A stretch of 64,000 nucleotides of DNA from Bryum argenteum. Its lineage: Eukaryota > Streptophyta > Bryopsida > Bryales > Bryaceae. The notes beneath the pieces were generated by a model that saw only the letters and a list, made by a program, of their open reading frames with translations, searched no databases and was not told where the DNA came from. This document shows positions 36,426 to 44,545 of the stretch, piece by piece (position 1 is the stretch's first letter; each line of letters starts with the position of its first letter). Position numbers and translations under genes: made by a program. The stretch is from positions 3,617,501 to 3,681,500 of the forward strand of contig CM073331.1 of assembly GCA_037043015.1 (NCBI GenBank). The letters are read 5' to 3'.

Positions 36426-37628
36426 AAGTTCTTTGTAACTCTACAACTTCACTGGATCTACTCAGAATCTGCGGATTCAAGTTCGTAGCCGAGTTTGGAT
36501 GTGAATGTCGACTACAACGCCATGCGTGATATACTGCGTTTCCGCATTCATTACACAAAATCATGCAATCAAAGGTGCACGATAAAAGCGCAGATTTGTT
36601 GATATGTCCAAATTCGGTGCAATTCATTCCAAAGAAACTTTATTTGTCGGCCTCAGTAAGTCAGCCATATCATTACAAGACCATAGTTCATTCCGTGAGA
36701 ACAAACAAGATGTCGTGGACCTTCTCAGAGCTGCAATTTCAACTAAAACTACGAAATGCACTCGGAAGCTCTCAAAAACATATGCATCTCTAACTGATTG
36801 TTCACTCTCGCATTCATGAGAAGTGCTACAGCCTAACGACACTCTGTCGCTCAATATTGATGTGGACTCGCCTCTGTCCAGGACCATGCCTAGTCGGGCT
36901 ATCACTCATCTCTAGCAACCACCGCTGGTAGCCAAAAGCATGTTCGACAGTGTGGGTGCTGTGGAATGCACAAGCTAATTCTTCAACTGCACCTTGCTCT
37001 CGTACAGCTTGCCGGGCACGAAGCCCTCGGGGATCACGTCCTCTGCCACCACGGAGTGGCCATTCAGCTTGGTTGTGACCTTGATGGAGTAGGGACCCTT
37101 GAAAGCCTGCCCCGACGTGTTGATCAACATCCAATTGGCGCCCCAGTTGTGCTTCGCCGGCTGGAACAAATCGCTGCCGCTGTGCTTAATCTCCACGCTC
37201 TCGATGTCACCCGGCCCACCCACGTACTTCACCGCGAAAGACAACCAAAACGCCGTCGACCCCGCATCCATGTCAAACGCCATGTTCTGATTTCCGTAGT
37301 CGCACGGCACGCGCTTATACATGATGTCATACTCTCCCACATTCCGCAGCTCACCGTCCTTGTCTGGCAGCGCCATGGCGCTGATGGCAGCTCCACTGAA
37401 GTCGAAGGCGGGGCTGGACTGGCTGCAGTACACTCCACCGGGACACTGATCTGTGATGACAATGCGAGTGGCATCGGGATTGCAGGTGGCGTGGGTGCAC
37501 TTGACGTCGTAGCATTGGCCGCATCCCAGCCCTCCCTGGTAGATGGCTTCGTTTCCCGCCGCGATCTTGGGCCCATACGGCGTGCCCGTGAGCGTCTTGT
37601 AGCCGCAGGCACCCCCGCTGGAGCCCTC

Positions 37629-37870
37629 TGTTGGTGCTTCTTGACCAGAATCGTATCCCGTCTGAAAGGCTACTGTCCTGTAGTAGTTGAGTTAGCTTTA
37701 AGAGGTAGATGGTTTAGTTATTAGCCCTTGTTGGTAACCCTAACCAAACAAGGGCTGCTCTTTATTTTGGTTGGTAGAGTAGAACCCTTCAGAGATGTAT
37801 ATATGGCCCAAGCTTGGCATTTCATTTTCATATATACAAGTGGATTACTAGTCTTGCTTATTTATCAACA
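37629..37870 (+). repeat. 5' LTR of the copia element
   Basis: Starts TGTTGGTGCTTCTTGACC, ends TTTATCAACA. Contains a likely TATA box (GATGTATATATGG, about 37794-37806), which should drive transcription through gag-pol. The 3' LTR has one T fewer near base 13. Confidence 0.95.
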
Positions 37871-37882
37871 TGGTATCAGAGC
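37871..37882 (+). other. Primer-binding site (initiator Met-tRNA)
   Basis: TGGTATCAGAGC directly follows the 5' LTR, the standard plant copia minus-strand primer site. Confidence 0.95.
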
Positions 37883-38025
37883 GTGGTTGCTAGATTCTCA
37901 TACTTGCTTGCTTGTCTACTAATTAGTGTGACTATCACAGAATAGTGCTGTCTATTGAAGGATATTGCTCACTTTAGTAGGACACCATAGAAGTTGCAAG
38001 GACTAGAGTTCAGAAAAGATAGATC

Positions 38026-38352
38026 ATGGCACTTAGAGATGTATCCATGAGTGACTCATCTAAACTAAATGGCAACTCCAACTACACTGTGTGGAGTTTC
38101 AAGCTTAGAAACCTCATGACAAGAGAAGATTCATGGAGAATAGTGGACCCTCCAGTAGGAACATTAGCTCCAACGTCACAAGCAGACATAGATGCCCTTC
38201 AGATTCAGAAGAATAAGGCTCTTAGCATGATAGCACTTTCAGTCAAAGATCATGTTATTCCTTACATAGCACACATCACAGAACCGGATGTATGCTGGAA
38301 TACTCTAAAAAGCCTCTATGCTAGCAAACAAATAGCAGGAAGCTCATGCTAA
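38026..38352 (+). CDS. gag: copia gag, N-terminal part (frame ends early)
   Basis: A 108-codon frame starting MALRDVSMSDSSKLNGNSNY, with the typical copia/UBN2 features: NYTVWSFKLRNLM, WRIVDPP and CWNTLKSLYASKQ. It stops at 38350-38352, just overlapping the next frame, which begins in a different phase and carries the rest of gag (LKMEEGSS...). A shift of one base near 38338-38345 would make the two continuous. The shift sits inside gag, where copia elements are not known to use recoding, so a one-base deletion or sequencing error is the simplest reading. Confidence 0.85.
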   Translation: MALRDVSMSDSSKLNGNSNYTVWSFKLRNLMTREDSWRIVDPPVGTLAPTSQADIDALQIQKNKALSMIALSVKDHVIPYIAHITEPDVCWNTLKSLYASKQIAGSSC

Positions 38353-41300
38353 AGAGGAAATTAGCCACCCTTAAGATGGAAGAAGGCTCTTCCATGCCTT
38401 TGTTCCTCCAAGAGCTAAGAGTACTTTTGAACGAATTTGCTAGTATAGGAGAAAAAATTGATGACTCCTTGCTTGTTGAGCAAATTCTTATGGCCCTTCC
38501 AGGGAGCTTCCAAGGTCTGGTTGACACTCTAACATACCAGCGAACTCTTCCGACTGTCGAGGAGTTGACCGAGCTGCTGCTGCAGGATGATCACAGACGC
38601 GAAATGAGAAGCCGCAAAGAGGGTGAAGTACTGATGGTTCGAGGTAACCAGCGGAGAGCCCAATCATCACAGACCAAAGACAGCGGCACAAGAACCAGCA
38701 AGAAGGTCGGAGACTGTCACTATTGTGGGGGTCATGACCACTGGGTCAGATCCTGCCCGGAACTAGCAGCAGAAATCAAACGGCGAAAAGCTGATCGGCT
38801 AGCTCGTACTGAAGGGCGCCAGACAATTAACCTGATTGACAACTTCAGAGCAGATCCAAGCGACGACTCCGCCTCCGACCAAGATCAGGACCTCGCGCCC
38901 GAGCTTGCAGTCAACGTTGCTGAGCTGAACCTGGCTTCCTACTCCAAGGACCTCCCACTTCGGGACTGGTACGTCGACAGCGGAGCCTCGGCTCATGTCA
39001 CCGGACAGCGTGAGGCTCTCGACCATCTCGCACCTGGACACTACTCCAAGGTCAGCACGGCGGGTGGTGAATCTCTCAATGTAGTCGGACGAGGTACCGT
39101 AGACATTTCTATGACCTCTGGAATAATAAAGTTTGACAAAGTTTTGTATGTTCCGGGCATTACCAAAAATCTTCTGTCAGTTGGGGCCATTGCCGATAGC
39201 CATCCTGGCCGCATGGTACTCTTTAGCTCCGATAAGGTCTGGATCTTGAGCGACCTTGAGCTCCCCGACTCCTCTCAGATTCTCGCTACGGGTTATAGGA
39301 ACCCCCAGAATGGCCTTTATCGATTTCGCCCACCAGATGGCTCCATTCTCGCTGTCACCTCTGACAGCACCGTTACCACAAGGCCTGCCGATAACTCCTC
39401 CAACATACCTGCTCGAGAGCACGCTGACCACACCATGCTGATCAGGGATGTTGTGCCACCGTTGGTAGAGACGCCGAGTAAAGCGCCACCTACTCCAATC
39501 ACCAGCTCGGCAGCCGCAATCAGATTTCAACGGGCTCACCACGAGCTACTGATCTGGCACAAAAGGTTTGGTCACTCCTATTTTCGAAATATTCTCTCGA
39601 TGCAACAGCAAGGCACAGTAGTTGGCCTTCCCTCTATGACGGGTATCCAGACGCCGTTTCCGATCTGCCCAGCCTGTCAATATGGCAAACAATGCCGTTT
39701 ACGACCTGGCCGCTCACATGGGACTGCCAATTTCGGATCAGCAGCTCTCCTTTCGCATGCTCCAGCAGCAGTCCACGAAGTCCACAGCGTTCCAATCTCG
39801 GCAGCCCGCCCTCTGATCAATCCTGTCAGCTGTACACAAAGTAACGGATTCAATGGGGTACGTCGTGCCTCCGAACCACTAGCTCTTGTTCACTCTGACT
39901 TATGTGGCCCAATTGGCGCCTCACCCTCAAGTTCCAAATACATTCTTACCATCACTGACTATTATAGTCGTTTCACATGGCTTTACTTTCTAAAGAAAAA
40001 GAGTGAAACCTTAGACAAGTTTAGACAGTTCAAAACAATGGTAGAATTGCAAATGCCATTCAAAGTCAAAGCTATTAGATCAGACAAAGGAGGGGAATAC
40101 ATAGCAAACTACTTTGTACGCTTTTGTGAAGAGACAGGAATAGTTCGTCAATTCACCCAAGTCTACACACCCCACCAAAACGGTGTGGCCGAAAGGAAGA
40201 ACCGGAGTCTCTTGGAGAAAGCCCGCTGCATGGCGTATGAGAGCCATGTTCCAATCCATCTTTGGACAGAAGCCGTTTCCTCCGCCAACTACCTGATCAA
40301 TCGCACGTCTACTTGTGCCAATGGTGGAGACACTCCTTTTTTTCGGCTTACAGGTTCCAAACCTTCCATTTCGCACCTGAAAATCTTTGGTTGTAGATCA
40401 TTTGTACTTGATACTACTCCATCTAGAACCAAATGGTCTCCCAAGGCAATAGAATGTGTCTTTGTGGGATATGATAACGAATCCAAGGGGTTCAGAAACT
40501 ATCATCGCCCAAGTCGAAAAATTCTCATCTCCAGCAACGTCGCTTTTGACGAAGCCAGCTATCCGTTCGCTGCCTCCAGTTCTTCTGCGCGCTCTCCTGT
40601 CGAGGACTGGCTCCTCTTTCCCATCGAGCCCGCCATCTCTCACAGCACGTCTCCCCCGGCTTCCTCGAACACTGATTCTCCTGCCGTCTCAGCTGCCGAC
40701 TTACCCTCTTCGCCCCTGCCATCGGTATCTCCGCTCTGCTCAACATCGCCTTCGCCGTGCCCTGTTTCACCTGGCTCCGAATCGCTTGGCGACTCTTACT
40801 CTCACCCGAGGCGTGCCGATGAAGACGACCCTCTAGCTGCTGGCGATTCTGCTGATCACACCAACCTCTTTGTTCCGATTCCAGACGGAGGCTTCTCAGT
40901 TCACCTTCCTCTGCACGCTTCACCGGCTGCTACCCCAACTACCCTGCGCCCAGTTTGCTCTTCCAGCCCTCCGCCTTCGTCTGGTGCCACCATCGGCAAT
41001 TCCGCCACCGCCACGACTCGCTCTGGCCGAATCAGCCGTCTGCCACCGGCGCTCCGTGAGTACCATCTTCACCTGGCTGACTCGTCTTCATGCACAGGAC
41101 TACCAGCCAGCCTCTCCGAAGCCCTTGAGCACCCTGGCTGGCGCTCCGCAATGGAGAGTGAACTTGCCTCCATCAACAAGAATCGCACCTGGGACATCGT
41201 ACCGTTGCCTCCTCACCGAAAGGCGATTTCCACAAAATGGGTTTTTCGAGTAAAAACGAACATTGATGGAACTCCTGCCAAACTCAAAGCGCGTCTAGTA

Positions 41301-42635
41301 GCCAAAGGCTTCCAACAAAAGGAAGGTATTGACTACCGTGACACATTTGCTCCTGTTGTCAAATGGAATACTTTTCGCAGTGTTGTCTCTCTAGCAGGCA
41401 ATAAAGGCTGGAAAATCTTCCACCTTGATGTCAAAACCGCATTTCTTAATGGAGCAGTAGAAGAAGAAATCTACGTTCTCCCTCCTCCAGGATTTGACTC
41501 CTCTACATCCAGCGACCACGCATGCAGGCTCAACAAAGCCCTATATGGGTTAAAGCAGGCACCCCGGGCCTGGCATTCAAGGGTCGATTCTTATCTTCTC
41601 AGTCAAGGCTTTCATCACTCCCAAGCTGACTCGAACCTCTACATTACGAATCGCTCTGGGCGGCTATCGCTGCTCCTCCTCTACGTCGACGACGTTTACC
41701 TAACAGGCGACGATGCTGCTCACCTCGAAACTGTCCGCTCCAACATCAAACTCGAGTTTGAGATGGCTGATCTAGGACTGCTGTCTCACTCACTTGGACT
41801 TGAGTTCAAGTTTCGCCCTGATGGCATCGCCGTCTCACAGCACAGCTATGTCCGCGAGCTTCTTGCCGAGTTTGGCATGAGCGACTGCCGCCCCACCTCG
41901 ACGCCGATGGCTGAAAAAGCGAACCTCGTTCCAGACATGCTGGAGCCTCCCACCGATGCTACTCTCTATCAGAGAATGGTCGGTAAGTTGATCTTTTTAA
42001 CCCATTCCCGCCCGGACGTTGCATATGCCGTCAGTATAGTTAGTAGATTCATGACTAACCCTCAGGAGTCTCATTCCCGTGCCGTAAAACACATTCTTAG
42101 GTATCTTCGAGGTACTAGTGACTTTGCTCTATTATATCGGCGCGGGGGGGAATTGTCACTTCATGGGTTCACTGACGCCGATTGGGCAGGAGACACACAT
42201 GATAGAAAGTCCACTACTGGGTTCATTTTTATGCTAGGAAACACTCCAATAACTTGGAATAGCAAAAAACAACCTACTGTAGCCCTTTCATCTACAGAAT
42301 CCGAATACATGGCCGTCACGGAAGGTGCAAAAGAAGCACTATGGCTTAGAAGACTCTTAGAAGAACTCAGAGTCCAGGACCCTCAGATTCCCACAATTAT
42401 CTATGGCGATAATCAGGGCAGTCTTAACTTGGCGCACAACCCAATTTACCATGCTCGCACTAAGCACATAGAGGTCAAACACCATTTTATTAGAGAGAAG
42501 ATTTTGTCAAAACAAGTGAAATTGGAATACACTCCAACCACGGAGCAACTAGCAGACATTATGACAAAAGCCTTGGGTAAGATAACTTTTGAGAGACTGA
42601 GGAACCAACTTGGACTGGTAAGGACAGAATCTTAG
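38346..42635 (+). CDS. pol: copia gag (C-terminal part)-pol polyprotein
   Basis: An uninterrupted 1429-codon frame. In order: remainder of gag with a CCHC knuckle (CHYCGGHDHWVRSC, about residue 125); aspartic protease (WYVDSGASAHVTG, about 205); integrase zinc domain (HHELLIWHKRFGHS ... CPACQYGKQ, about 397-445) and catalytic core (VHSDLCG, YTPHQNGVAERKNR, about 515-615) with GPKPS-like SKPSISHLKIFGC; a Ser/Pro-rich linker; reverse transcriptase (KARLVAKGFQQKEGIDY, active site LLYVDDVYLTG at about 1110); RNase H (GFTDADWAGDTHDRKSTTGF, SSTESEYMAV, YGDNQGSLNLAHN) to the C-terminus. All catalytic signatures look intact. Together with near-identical LTRs this suggests recent activity. Confidence 0.95.
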   Translation: MLKRKLATLKMEEGSSMPLFLQELRVLLNEFASIGEKIDDSLLVEQILMALPGSFQGLVDTLTYQRTLPTVEELTELLLQDDHRREMRSRKEGEVLMVRGNQRRAQSSQTKDSGTRTSKKVGDCHYCGGHDHWVRSCPELAAEIKRRKADRLARTEGRQTINLIDNFRADPSDDSASDQDQDLAPELAVNVAELNLASYSKDLPLRDWYVDSGASAHVTGQREALDHLAPGHYSKVSTAGGESLNVVGRGTVDISMTSGIIKFDKVLYVPGITKNLLSVGAIADSHPGRMVLFSSDKVWILSDLELPDSSQILATGYRNPQNGLYRFRPPDGSILAVTSDSTVTTRPADNSSNIPAREHADHTMLIRDVVPPLVETPSKAPPTPITSSAAAIRFQRAHHELLIWHKRFGHSYFRNILSMQQQGTVVGLPSMTGIQTPFPICPACQYGKQCRLRPGRSHGTANFGSAALLSHAPAAVHEVHSVPISAARPLINPVSCTQSNGFNGVRRASEPLALVHSDLCGPIGASPSSSKYILTITDYYSRFTWLYFLKKKSETLDKFRQFKTMVELQMPFKVKAIRSDKGGEYIANYFVRFCEETGIVRQFTQVYTPHQNGVAERKNRSLLEKARCMAYESHVPIHLWTEAVSSANYLINRTSTCANGGDTPFFRLTGSKPSISHLKIFGCRSFVLDTTPSRTKWSPKAIECVFVGYDNESKGFRNYHRPSRKILISSNVAFDEASYPFAASSSSARSPVEDWLLFPIEPAISHSTSPPASSNTDSPAVSAADLPSSPLPSVSPLCSTSPSPCPVSPGSESLGDSYSHPRRADEDDPLAAGDSADHTNLFVPIPDGGFSVHLPLHASPAATPTTLRPVCSSSPPPSSGATIGNSATATTRSGRISRLPPALREYHLHLADSSSCTGLPASLSEALEHPGWRSAMESELASINKNRTWDIVPLPPHRKAISTKWVFRVKTNIDGTPAKLKARLVAKGFQQKEGIDYRDTFAPVVKWNTFRSVVSLAGNKGWKIFHLDVKTAFLNGAVEEEIYVLPPPGFDSSTSSDHACRLNKALYGLKQAPRAWHSRVDSYLLSQGFHHSQADSNLYITNRSGRLSLLLLYVDDVYLTGDDAAHLETVRSNIKLEFEMADLGLLSHSLGLEFKFRPDGIAVSQHSYVRELLAEFGMSDCRPTSTPMAEKANLVPDMLEPPTDATLYQRMVGKLIFLTHSRPDVAYAVSIVSRFMTNPQESHSRAVKHILRYLRGTSDFALLYRRGGELSLHGFTDADWAGDTHDRKSTTGFIFMLGNTPITWNSKKQPTVALSSTESEYMAVTEGAKEALWLRRLLEELRVQDPQIPTIIYGDNQGSLNLAHNPIYHARTKHIEVKHHFIREKILSKQVKLEYTPTTEQLADIMTKALGKITFERLRNQLGLVRTES

Positions 42636-42671
42636 AGACTAACTATCTGTGAAGCCCAAACCCTAAACAGC

Positions 42672-43199
42672 TCACATCGATTGTCCACTGTCCCTTAACC
42701 TTGCTACTAACTCCTCCATATCTTCAGAAAGTAGGATTCTGAAATGCTCTATCTCAAACAAAAAACGTTCAGGTAAAGTCTGATAGTCTAACCCAAGCGC
42801 TAATCTGCAAGCGCAATAGCTCCTCTGAGTGTCGAGTAGAGCGAATATCCGACCATTCCACTCAATTGTTGAGGTCACGAATCGGTTCCATGCAACGCTA
42901 ACTGAACGCAGCTGAACGAGAAGCTCACTTGACGGTGGCGACATCAAAGCTGCCCAGACTCTGTCAATGACCACATCGTCTGGGAGATATGGGATCAAGG
43001 CTTCCGAAACTGCTGGAGAAAGATTTGCCGATCCCTGTAGCTGCTCATCACTCAACCTTGGCTCCAGAAAGAAGATTGTTCTGGCAAAGTCGTTGGGTTC
43101 CATCATCCGGAAGAACAAGTCAACTAGGTATCCTGAGGTCCTCCTCATCATCGCAATGATGTCCCTCAGGAAAATAGAACTGATCTGCCACAAGGACAT
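42672..43199 (-). CDS. Antisense F-box-like ORF inside the copia element
   Basis: A 175-codon frame starting at ATG 43199 on the strand opposite gag-pol, between the pol stop (42635) and the polypurine tract (43282). Residues about 85-125 read as an F-box: LIPYLPDDVVIDRVWAAL, then LLVQLRSVSVAWNRFV and the Trp in STIEWNG. F-box proteins link targets to SCF ubiquitin ligases through SKP1. The N-terminal ~80 residues and the C-terminal ~50 (LPERFLFEIEHFRILL) have no motif I know, and no kelch or LRR target-binding domain follows. Extra ORFs, sometimes antisense, are known between pol and the 3' LTR of some plant LTR elements; an F-box-like one suggests capture of a host exon. Intact over its length. 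A short real exon acquired without function is the main alternative. Confidence 0.6.
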   Translation of the reverse strand: MSLWQISSIFLRDIIAMMRRTSGYLVDLFFRMMEPNDFARTIFFLEPRLSDEQLQGSANLSPAVSEALIPYLPDDVVIDRVWAALMSPPSSELLVQLRSVSVAWNRFVTSTIEWNGRIFALLDTQRSYCACRLALGLDYQTLPERFLFEIEHFRILLSEDMEELVARLRDSGQSM

Positions 43200-43281
43200 T
43201 TTGAAGCTCAACTCACGAACAGACTGGATCCTTCTGCGATTTCAATCAAAAGTGATCACTCCAGCACACACTGTCTGGAGC

Positions 43282-43290
43282 GAGGAGGGG
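43282..43290 (+). other. Polypurine tract
   Basis: GAGGAGGGG immediately before the 3' LTR; plus-strand primer site for reverse transcription. Confidence 0.85.
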
Positions 43291-43531
43291 TGTTGGTGCT
43301 TCTGACCAGAATCGTATCCCGTCTGAAAGGCTACTGTCCTGTAGTAGTTGAGTTAGCTTTAAGAGGTAGATGGTTTAGTTATTAGCCCTTGTTGGTAACC
43401 CTAACCAAACAAGGGCTGCTCTTTATTTTGGTTGGTAGAGTAGAACCCTTCAGAGATGTATATATGGCCCAAGCTTGGCATTTCATTTTCATATATACAA
43501 GTGGATTACTAGTCTTGCTTATTTATCAACA
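43291..43531 (+). repeat. 3' LTR of the copia element
   Basis: 241 bp, matching the 5' LTR except for one base missing near the start (CTTCTGACC versus CTTCTTGACC). Followed by the CCCTC target duplication and the 5' part of the expansin gene. Confidence 0.95.
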
Positions 43532-43674
43532 CCCTCGCCGTGCGGATCCCCGTACCAGGTGGCGTGGCCAACGACCCACTGGTCGTCGTAGCCATCCACA
43601 CACCCGGCGAGGTGCGCCGTGACGTGCAAGAGCCCCATGAGGCCCAACAATCCCTGGCACCGCTGCACGGCCAT

Positions 43675-44000
43675 TGCAGAGAATGCACGCACAGCTTAAG
43701 GTAAGTACCCTGGATCGCAATGCAGCGAGGTGAATGGCCGAATTTGAATACATGGGGTGGTGCTTTATAGTCGTGATCCATGACCGCCAACAGCATTCAA
43801 TTTGTCTGAGAGGGTAGTGATCGCTTCAGAAGTAAGAGGGGTCACAGCGTGATGATCGCAGAGCAGGTCGTTAAGTTAGAGGAGTTAGTGCCGTGGTGAC
43901 AAGTCGGAGCAGCAGCCTGCCCCCGATCACACCCTCTCGGACAAGCGCTCAACTGGAAGAACCGATGCTTGTGAGAGTTCCACCACCGAAGTATACGGAT
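43675..44000 (-). promoter_or_regulatory. Upstream region shared by the expansin copies
   Basis: Blocks such as GGGGTCACAGCG(T/C)G(A/G)TGATC, GCAGGTCGTTAA and GTGACAAGTCGGAGCA recur upstream of the stub (about 34880-35010), after U2 copy 2 (about 45590-45690) and in part after copy 3 (46370-46500). A TTTATAG near 43766 could be the TATA box. Conservation among copies that have lost the gene reflects duplication rather than function. Confidence 0.5.
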
Positions 44001-44545
44001 GAGAAGTGGATAATCGGAGATGCCTACCACCTTAAGGTTCGGGAGTTTCTGGAACTACACGGCTGGGAAGTGGATAATCGGAGATGCCTAGTACCACCTC
44101 AATGTTCGGGACTTTCTGGAACTACACGGCTGAGAAGTGGATAATCGGAGATGCCTACCACCTCAATGTTCGGGACTTTCTGGAACTGCAGCCGTGTATC
44201 AGCCCCAGGTCGCCATGAATGCTACCCTGACCCGAATGTGGTGGCAGAAAGTGGACCCTGAGCCCTTCAAACTCGGAGATGGTCGCGGCGGTAGTGGCGA
44301 CTGTGGAAGTAGAGCTCTAAGGATCTGTGTGTTAAGCCCCTACGAAAATCCTTCCATCAATGTGAGAAATTTAGTACTGCACTTACGAATTAACAGGGGT
44401 GACAATTGAAATGGGCTATTAGACCAATTACTGTGGTTAAAGAATTAGAGTGGACAGCTAAGAAAATTGGCTTTTAGACCAATTACTGTGGTCAAAGAAT
44501 TAGCGTGGACGGCCAAGGAAATTGGCTTTTAGACCAACTACATCA
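44001..44545. repeat. Two short tandem arrays upstream of the split expansin
   Basis: Three units of about 65 bases at 44001-44197, each with GAAGTGGATAATCGGAGATG and TTTCTGGAACT. Then about two and a half units of roughly 60 bases at 44407-44541 with TTTTAGACCAATTACTGTGG and AAAGAATTAG. Neither is coding. DNA from 44546 to 45158 shows nothing recognisable. Confidence 0.7.

Follow-up and report, generated by a model that had tools for sequence, protein, structure and literature searches.

An open reading frame that lies antisense between pol and the 3' LTR of a retrotransposon of the moss Bryum argenteum belongs to a family of antisense accessory genes. This family is found in a deep Ty1/copia clade of the genome, is inherited with the element and is kept as protein. 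We describe the frame in one copy, contained in a stretch of 64,000 nucleotides (contig CM073331.1, positions 3,617,501 to 3,681,500; hereafter the window, whose internal positions we use for this copy), and in its relatives as surveyed in this one genome.

The element in the window

The Ty1/copia element spans 37629-43531 (5.9 kb) and is the single such element described in the window. It has the structural features of its class: a pair of LTRs of the form TG...CA (5' LTR, 242 bp, 37629..37870; 3' LTR, 241 bp, 43291..43531; both on the plus strand), a 5-bp target-site duplication, CCCTC, read from the sequence on the left (37624..37628) and right (43532..43536), a plus-strand primer-binding site TGGTATCAGAGC at 37871..37882, and a plus-strand polypurine tract GAGCGAGGAGGGG at 43278..43290. 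The same 12 bases follow the 5' LTR in 7 of 7 other elements examined, and a similar tract precedes the 3' LTR in these seven. The primer-binding site is putatively the complement of the 3' end of full initiator tRNA-Met, which would speak against the Bryco lineage. For Bryco, a copia lineage of REXdb, the REXdb survey gives a half-molecule tRNA-Met primer site (PMC6317226).

On the plus strand, a gag start (38026..38352) is followed, out of frame, by 1429 open codons (38346..42635) that hold the rest of gag, protease, integrase, reverse transcriptase and RNase H. Pfam matches in this region are Retrotran_gag_2, Pol_BBD, gag_pre-integrs, rve and RVT_2; protease and RNase H are named from their position and from the usual layout of the family. 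Integrase precedes reverse transcriptase and the domains stand in copia order, as the assignment to Ty1/copia demands. The two LTRs share 229 bp without mismatch and their sole difference is one single-base indel, so the insertion is young. In this copy gag-pol is interrupted, its gag start and its pol ORF being in different frames; in two relatives gag-pol is one open frame of 1556-1558 codons. The initial annotation had called the element active-looking, a description that suits its young LTRs and open pol but not its displaced gag start.

The element is inserted in an expansin gene: the left flank (36978-37625, minus strand) matches DPBB_1 and Expansin_C in Pfam, and the right flank (about 43532-43690, minus strand) reads by eye like the start of an expansin protein and has no Pfam match. 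Short direct repeats lie to the right of the element at 43988-44190 and 44409-44518.

The antisense ORF occupies 42672..43199 on the minus strand, with its ATG at 43199 and its stop ending at 42672, and encodes 175 amino acids. It lies between the end of pol at 42635 and the start of the 3' LTR at 43291, exactly the position claimed for it beforehand. A DNA search of the element's own genome (258.8 Mb) finds this ORF once and finds only one relative pair of its LTR, 72-73% identical; these repeat counts are lower bounds, and as far as DNA search shows the element's own family looks single copy.

Diverged elements carry the frame in the same antisense position

At the protein level the picture is different. 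Searching the genome with the window ORF returns 79 matches at E <= 1, and 57 of them lie downstream of an RNase H (with the best 150 of 1435 RNase H candidates as the reference set), all 57 antisense and none sense, 52 of them at a distance of 100-365 bp. For 79 randomly placed matches, the number expected beside an RNase H by chance has a mean of 0.12 and a maximum of 3 in 1000 trials. Among the remaining 22 matches, copia pol is found on the opposite strand for five loci, for nine hits (at eight loci) and for four of the last eight, which brings the matches that are antisense just downstream of copia pol to 75 of 79. For the other four, C10:2550939, C4:15906668, C10:13516675 and C4:6607011 (E-values 6e-5, 0.0013, 0.016 and 0.5, respectively), the stretch examined shows no pol.

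Four further ORF queries, drawn from other subfamilies, give 76, 81, 64 and 64 matches, and the five queries merge into 91 places. Eighty of these are antisense beside copia pol (63 beside an RNase H of the reference set and 17 beside pol in fetched loci); of the other 11, four have no pol within the stretch examined and seven were not fetched. Sense-side placement beside a scored RNase H (best 150 of 1435 candidates) occurs at 0 of the 91 places. The ORF is more than a chance opening: its frame is found again, as a protein family, in elements that have diverged, and always in this antisense position beside pol where a pol is seen.

An iterated profile finds the ORF protein in 75 of 95 fetched loci, and once repeats of the same place are removed the 95 loci hold 64 distinct copies. 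Sixteen of these read as one frame over nearly the whole profile, 31 as one frame over part of it, and 17 are in at least two pieces. The 16 nearly full-length ORFs range from 175 to 286 codons, 15 of them under 250. The arrangement known as an aORF-3R, in which most copies of a lineage keep an antisense ORF after pol and before the 3' LTR, is what we find, with the 3' LTR demonstrated for seven carriers, the window copy included. In the other six, pol is followed by the ORF, then by the polypurine tract and the 3' LTR; their LTR pairs are 98.9, 99.1, 99.2, 97.8, 100 and 99.6% identical, and target-site duplications match in five, with one mismatch in the sixth (C7:10217k). These carriers of the ORF are young.

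One copy, L012, has a second antisense frame of 153 amino acids, about 1.1-1.5 kb downstream of RNase H, which falls outside the family and has a weak F-box look by eye. Among the best 150 of 1435 RNase H candidates there is also a different copia family, with about 51% identity in RNase H, clustered at C1:28.9-29.0 Mb, C5:19.1-19.3 Mb and C7:1.39-1.44 Mb. This clustering resembles that of RLC5 in Physcomitrium, which clusters once per chromosome according to a moss expression study (PMC7466625).

The ORF follows the element and can be lost

To compare the history of the ORF with that of its carrier we use 25 of the 41 single-frame ORFs, those with a clean RNase H piece of more than 110 residues and with near-duplicates removed. 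ORF and RNase H distances are correlated (Mantel r 0.79, with 0 of 9999 permutations as high), 22 of the 25 have the same nearest neighbour by either measure, and 17 of 22 splits are common to both trees. The phylogeny of the ORF follows that of the element's RNase H, and the ORF is common to a deep element clade.

In an RNase H tree of 70 copies, the ORF profile is found in 54, which is not an unbiased rate because the loci were fetched partly by the ORF itself, and is absent in 16 that are spread over several groups. Some of these 16 are remnants and not true absences, since L065 and L095 hold a broken ORF piece (tblastn), L037 has an F-box-like stretch by eye, and L027 keeps the edges of the region with its core lost. 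The last of these (C7:6149-6155 kb; also L025, L102) is the closest relative of the window element, with 90% identity in RNase H; it has identical 243-bp LTRs and an open 1558-codon frame but lacks the core, so not every copy needs the gene. Within this clade the ORF is old and open to loss. Separately, L031, L033, L034 and L035 are very similar copies with no ORF match, their similarity stopping about 600 bp after RNase H, and this group may be a recent burst of elements that lack the ORF.

It had been proposed that this element captured a host F-box exon, and the near-identical LTRs, hence a young insertion, together with an LTR family that is single copy by DNA search, are what a recent capture by this one element would look like. 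We reject this explanation and give it practically no credence: the ORF stands at the same antisense place in diverged elements in 75 of 79 matches (57 of them beside an RNase H of the reference set), it runs through a deep clade, and its tree agrees with that of RNase H. A donor is not seen either: not one of the 91 ORF places comes within 3.7 kb of the best 150 of 328 F-box-like (Pfam) places in the genome, 149 of which exceed the Pfam cut-off.

The ORF is under selection as a protein

The initial annotation suggested judging the frame by its presence and dN/dS in other copies, and since the LTR family of the window has, as far as DNA search shows, a single member, we apply this check to relatives. 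The answer has two sides: the ORF is intact in some and conserved by dN/dS, and it is lost or has no profile match in others. Under the codon model GY94, 21 of 26 pairs show purifying selection (omega <= 0.41 with p <= 6e-5). Saturation makes omega unreliable for the deepest pairs, most of all for L004/L003, L012/L069 and L002/L004. Examples are L009/L008 (0.055), L005/L012 (0.097, LR 100), L007/L009 (0.133, LR 91), L062/L063 (0.28, p 9e-8) and the window copy with L003 (0.124, p 3e-7). In five recent pairs (L058/L070, L080/L081, L018/L020, L009/L010 and L073/L077) omega is 0.54-0.93, indistinguishable from 1. Between subfamilies omega is well below 1, and in this sense the frame has indeed been kept open.

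For RNase H, omega is 0.06-0.09 in eight moderately diverged pairs and 0.26, 0.31 and 1.0 in three recent ones. The ORF value is 2.7-6.5 times that of RNase H in seven of the eight moderately diverged pairs, the eighth (L002/L004) being saturated for the ORF, and from this ratio we conclude that the ORF is less constrained than pol.

The other reading frames serve as controls. In seven of seven control pairs, four of the five other frames have omega > 1; the mirror sense frame has omega of 0.24-0.44 in these pairs, yet carries stops in 13 of 13 intact copies. In all 13 of the intact ORFs examined, every other frame holds 4-27 stops. We considered a gene on the sense strand here and rejected it, with 4-15 stops per sense frame in the same 13 of 13 intact copies.

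Architecture of the product and the F-box-like core

The usual order of the product is a hydrophobic N-terminal segment, a linker, a divergent F-box and a tail. In its full form the protein starts like MSIP..QSVENL and continues with a hydrophobic LSLWQ-FLL-LW segment, a variable linker, a core of the form LIPxLPDxxVxxxxWPxL...LLxLRxxNxxWRRFVGxTxEW, and a tail with CPP and YYxL. Nine columns (L91, L95, D97, V100, W105, L117, W127, E136 and W137 in L005 numbering) are invariant in 12 intact proteins, a set that includes two near-identical pairs, and P96 is nearly so; in a wider set of 25, partial frames included, three columns are still invariant. Counting from the first ATG, 12 of the 16 nearly full-length ORFs reach a 19-residue Kyte-Doolittle mean of 1.58 or more in a segment that starts within the first 60 residues, and the four below it are L009 (1.47), L010 (1.42), L056 (1.32) and the window copy.

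The window ORF is shorter at both ends than its fullest relatives. Its N-terminal segment (residues 1-33; 43101..43199, minus strand) corresponds to the hydrophobic segment that resembles a membrane anchor in most intact relatives but is not itself membrane-like, with a 19-residue hydropathy maximum of 0.97. The tail is missing from the window copy and from L003 and L004, and because these two are its kin the short form seems to be a subclade trait. The core lies at residues 67-114 (ALIPYLPDDVV...TIEW; 42858..43001, minus strand).

The centre of the frame had been read as an F-box from the start, a reading that holds for the family profile and fails for the window protein alone, which has no Pfam match at E <= 1. 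With the first 12 members, no Pfam family is below E 0.01 and the F-box-like model is matched by one member at E 3.7; in this smaller set, with its two near-identical pairs, CDK2AP and DUF7159 are matched by two of 12 each (best E 0.05 and 0.18). With 25 members, PF00646 is matched by five (best E 0.0018) and PF12937 by four (best E 0.00069), and F-box models are the only Pfam families matched by more than one of the 25. The curated cut-offs are passed by 0 of the 25, the best scores being 18.5 bits against 20.5 for PF00646 and 19.8 against 24.3 for PF12937. Five of ten members scanned singly have F-box matches, all on the aligned core stretch and spanning the second half of the model only (positions 17-45).

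Comparing profiles with hhalign, we find that the family profile matches an F-box profile with a probability of 71.7%, and when trimmed with 85.8% and a score of 35.8. The reference profile consists of eight F-box sequences; all ten sequences gathered for reference are recognised as F-boxes by Pfam. The score compares with at most 18.6 in 300 column shuffles and 8.9 for the reversed profile, and LP and W are in register over the core. A profile search of solved structures gives one chance-level match (E 1.2 and 1.3), and a single-sequence AlphaFold model of the window protein is uninformative (pLDDT 42). The comparison of profiles argues with moderate strength that the core of the ORF product is a divergent F-box.

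Discussion

Antisense genes at this place have precedents in plant LTR elements. Grande and RIRE2 are Ty3/gypsy elements. A review (PMC7264820) describes an antisense aORF-3R between pol and the 3' LTR in maize Grande (gene23), rice RIRE2, Silene Retand and bean PvRetro13; it finds in such ORFs no clear similarity to other proteins, save for domains such as SMC and Transposase 28, and regards the roles of antisense accessory genes in plant LTR elements as undetermined. The family described here is like these in its place, its antisense strand and its conservation across copies. It differs in what is encoded and in its carrier. The Grande ORF has its own upstream promoter and encodes a nuclear protein, and that of PvRetro13 has an SMC domain, where here we see an F-box-like core and a hydrophobic N-terminus. 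Retand encodes a TRP28/Transposase_28 protein in a Ty3/gypsy carrier, according to the text cited (PMC11963269), whereas our carrier is Ty1/copia and not Retand-type, and PF04195 (Transposase_28) is absent among the Pfam matches of the 25 members at E <= 10.

Within copia, the REXdb survey (PMC6317226) reports extra ORFs in 582 Ty1/copia elements and no conserved domain that the majority of elements in a single lineage share. It names a forward 3' eORF as characteristic of the SIRE lineage, unlike the antisense ORF here, and in the part cited it names neither a conserved reverse eORF in copia nor an F-box. Since that survey has a threshold of at least 250 codons, and all but one of the nearly full-length ORFs fall under it, most ORFs of the F-box-like family would have been missed. 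The main text of the moss expression study (PMC7466625) has no mention of an F-box. The initial annotation knew of no described copia family with such cargo, and we likewise find no F-box ORF in copia described among the open-access titles and abstracts listed.

How might the protein be made? The start codon is 44-58 bp from the 3' LTR in six other carriers and 91 bp from it in the window, where the antisense strand of the LTR runs into the ORF. From this spacing in seven carriers an antisense message would start in or near the 3' LTR, and the ORF is probably transcribed from it. TATA-like boxes on the antisense strand upstream of the ATG are found inside the LTR in four of seven elements, and upstream ATGs occur in all seven.

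F-box proteins link targets to SKP1-CUL1. Two parasite systems are of interest as analogies, and one of them, HIV-1 Vpu, has a single membrane anchor and no F-box of its own. P0 of poleroviruses is a parasite-borne F-box protein that forms an SCF and directs AGO1 to degradation (PMC11371168), and Vpu is a retroviral accessory protein that works through SCF via beta-TrCP (PMC6212966, PMC4517359). P0 differs in being a gene of an RNA virus, and the likeness is one of functional analogy only; Vpu differs in binding a host F-box protein, and no homology is claimed.

These precedents and the anatomy of the ORF suggest an accessory protein that would guide SCF to a host factor, in many cases at a membrane. 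We think it rather probable that the ORF is an accessory gene of ancient origin and that its product recruits the SCF (SKP1-CUL1-F-box) ubiquitin ligase, likely against a host restriction factor. The protein would do so by binding SKP1; its N-terminal hydrophobic segment would tether it to a membrane in most subfamilies with an intact ORF, and the linker and C-terminal tail may hold the target. Most likely it would serve to eliminate a host factor restricting the element, in the manner of P0 and, with other targets, of Vpu, and as first-ranked candidates for the target we would name RNA-silencing proteins such as ARGONAUTE. A fuller version of this reading we hold only tentatively: that the copia clade encodes a membrane-tethered F-box protein, a parasite-owned SCF ligase made antisense from the 3' LTR and removing host silencing or restriction factors, which would make it a retrotransposon analogue of Vpu and P0, retained from an early stage of the clade.

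The main rival is that the element is its own target: the F-box protein, made antisense when the LTR is active, would serve as an SCF adaptor that lowers Gag or Pol and so controls copy number. A regulatory role in retrotransposition is suggested for antisense ORFs in the review cited above (PMC7264820), and constraint below that of RNase H and absence in several groups would suit a dispensable regulator; yet a self-limiting gene would be expected to be lost in competition between elements, and this one persists over a deep clade, so that self-control seems doubtful to us. We judge it improbable that the conserved protein is no SCF adaptor at all and that its F-box-like helices have a different function, in the nucleus or at a membrane, of the kind put forward for the Grande or Retand antisense proteins. 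The single-sequence Pfam matches, all of them partial and below cut-off, and the lack of a match among solved structures point that way, but the profile-profile match is in register with the F-box and far above 300 shuffles, and only F-box models are matched by more than one of the 25 members. That the antisense RNA matters and not the protein, by pairing with genomic RNA and tuning silencing, is very unlikely: such roles are discussed for other elements (PMC7264820), but selection here acts at the codon level in the frame of the ORF, and the other frames of the 13 intact ORFs are full of stops.

The ORF family offers a biochemical handle in the F-box, young elements with intact copies, natural losses that allow comparison, and selection that can be measured. 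If SCF is recruited, plant retrotransposons, like retroviruses and poleroviruses, would use cullin-RING ligases, and which host factors restrict plant retrotransposons would become a directly testable question.
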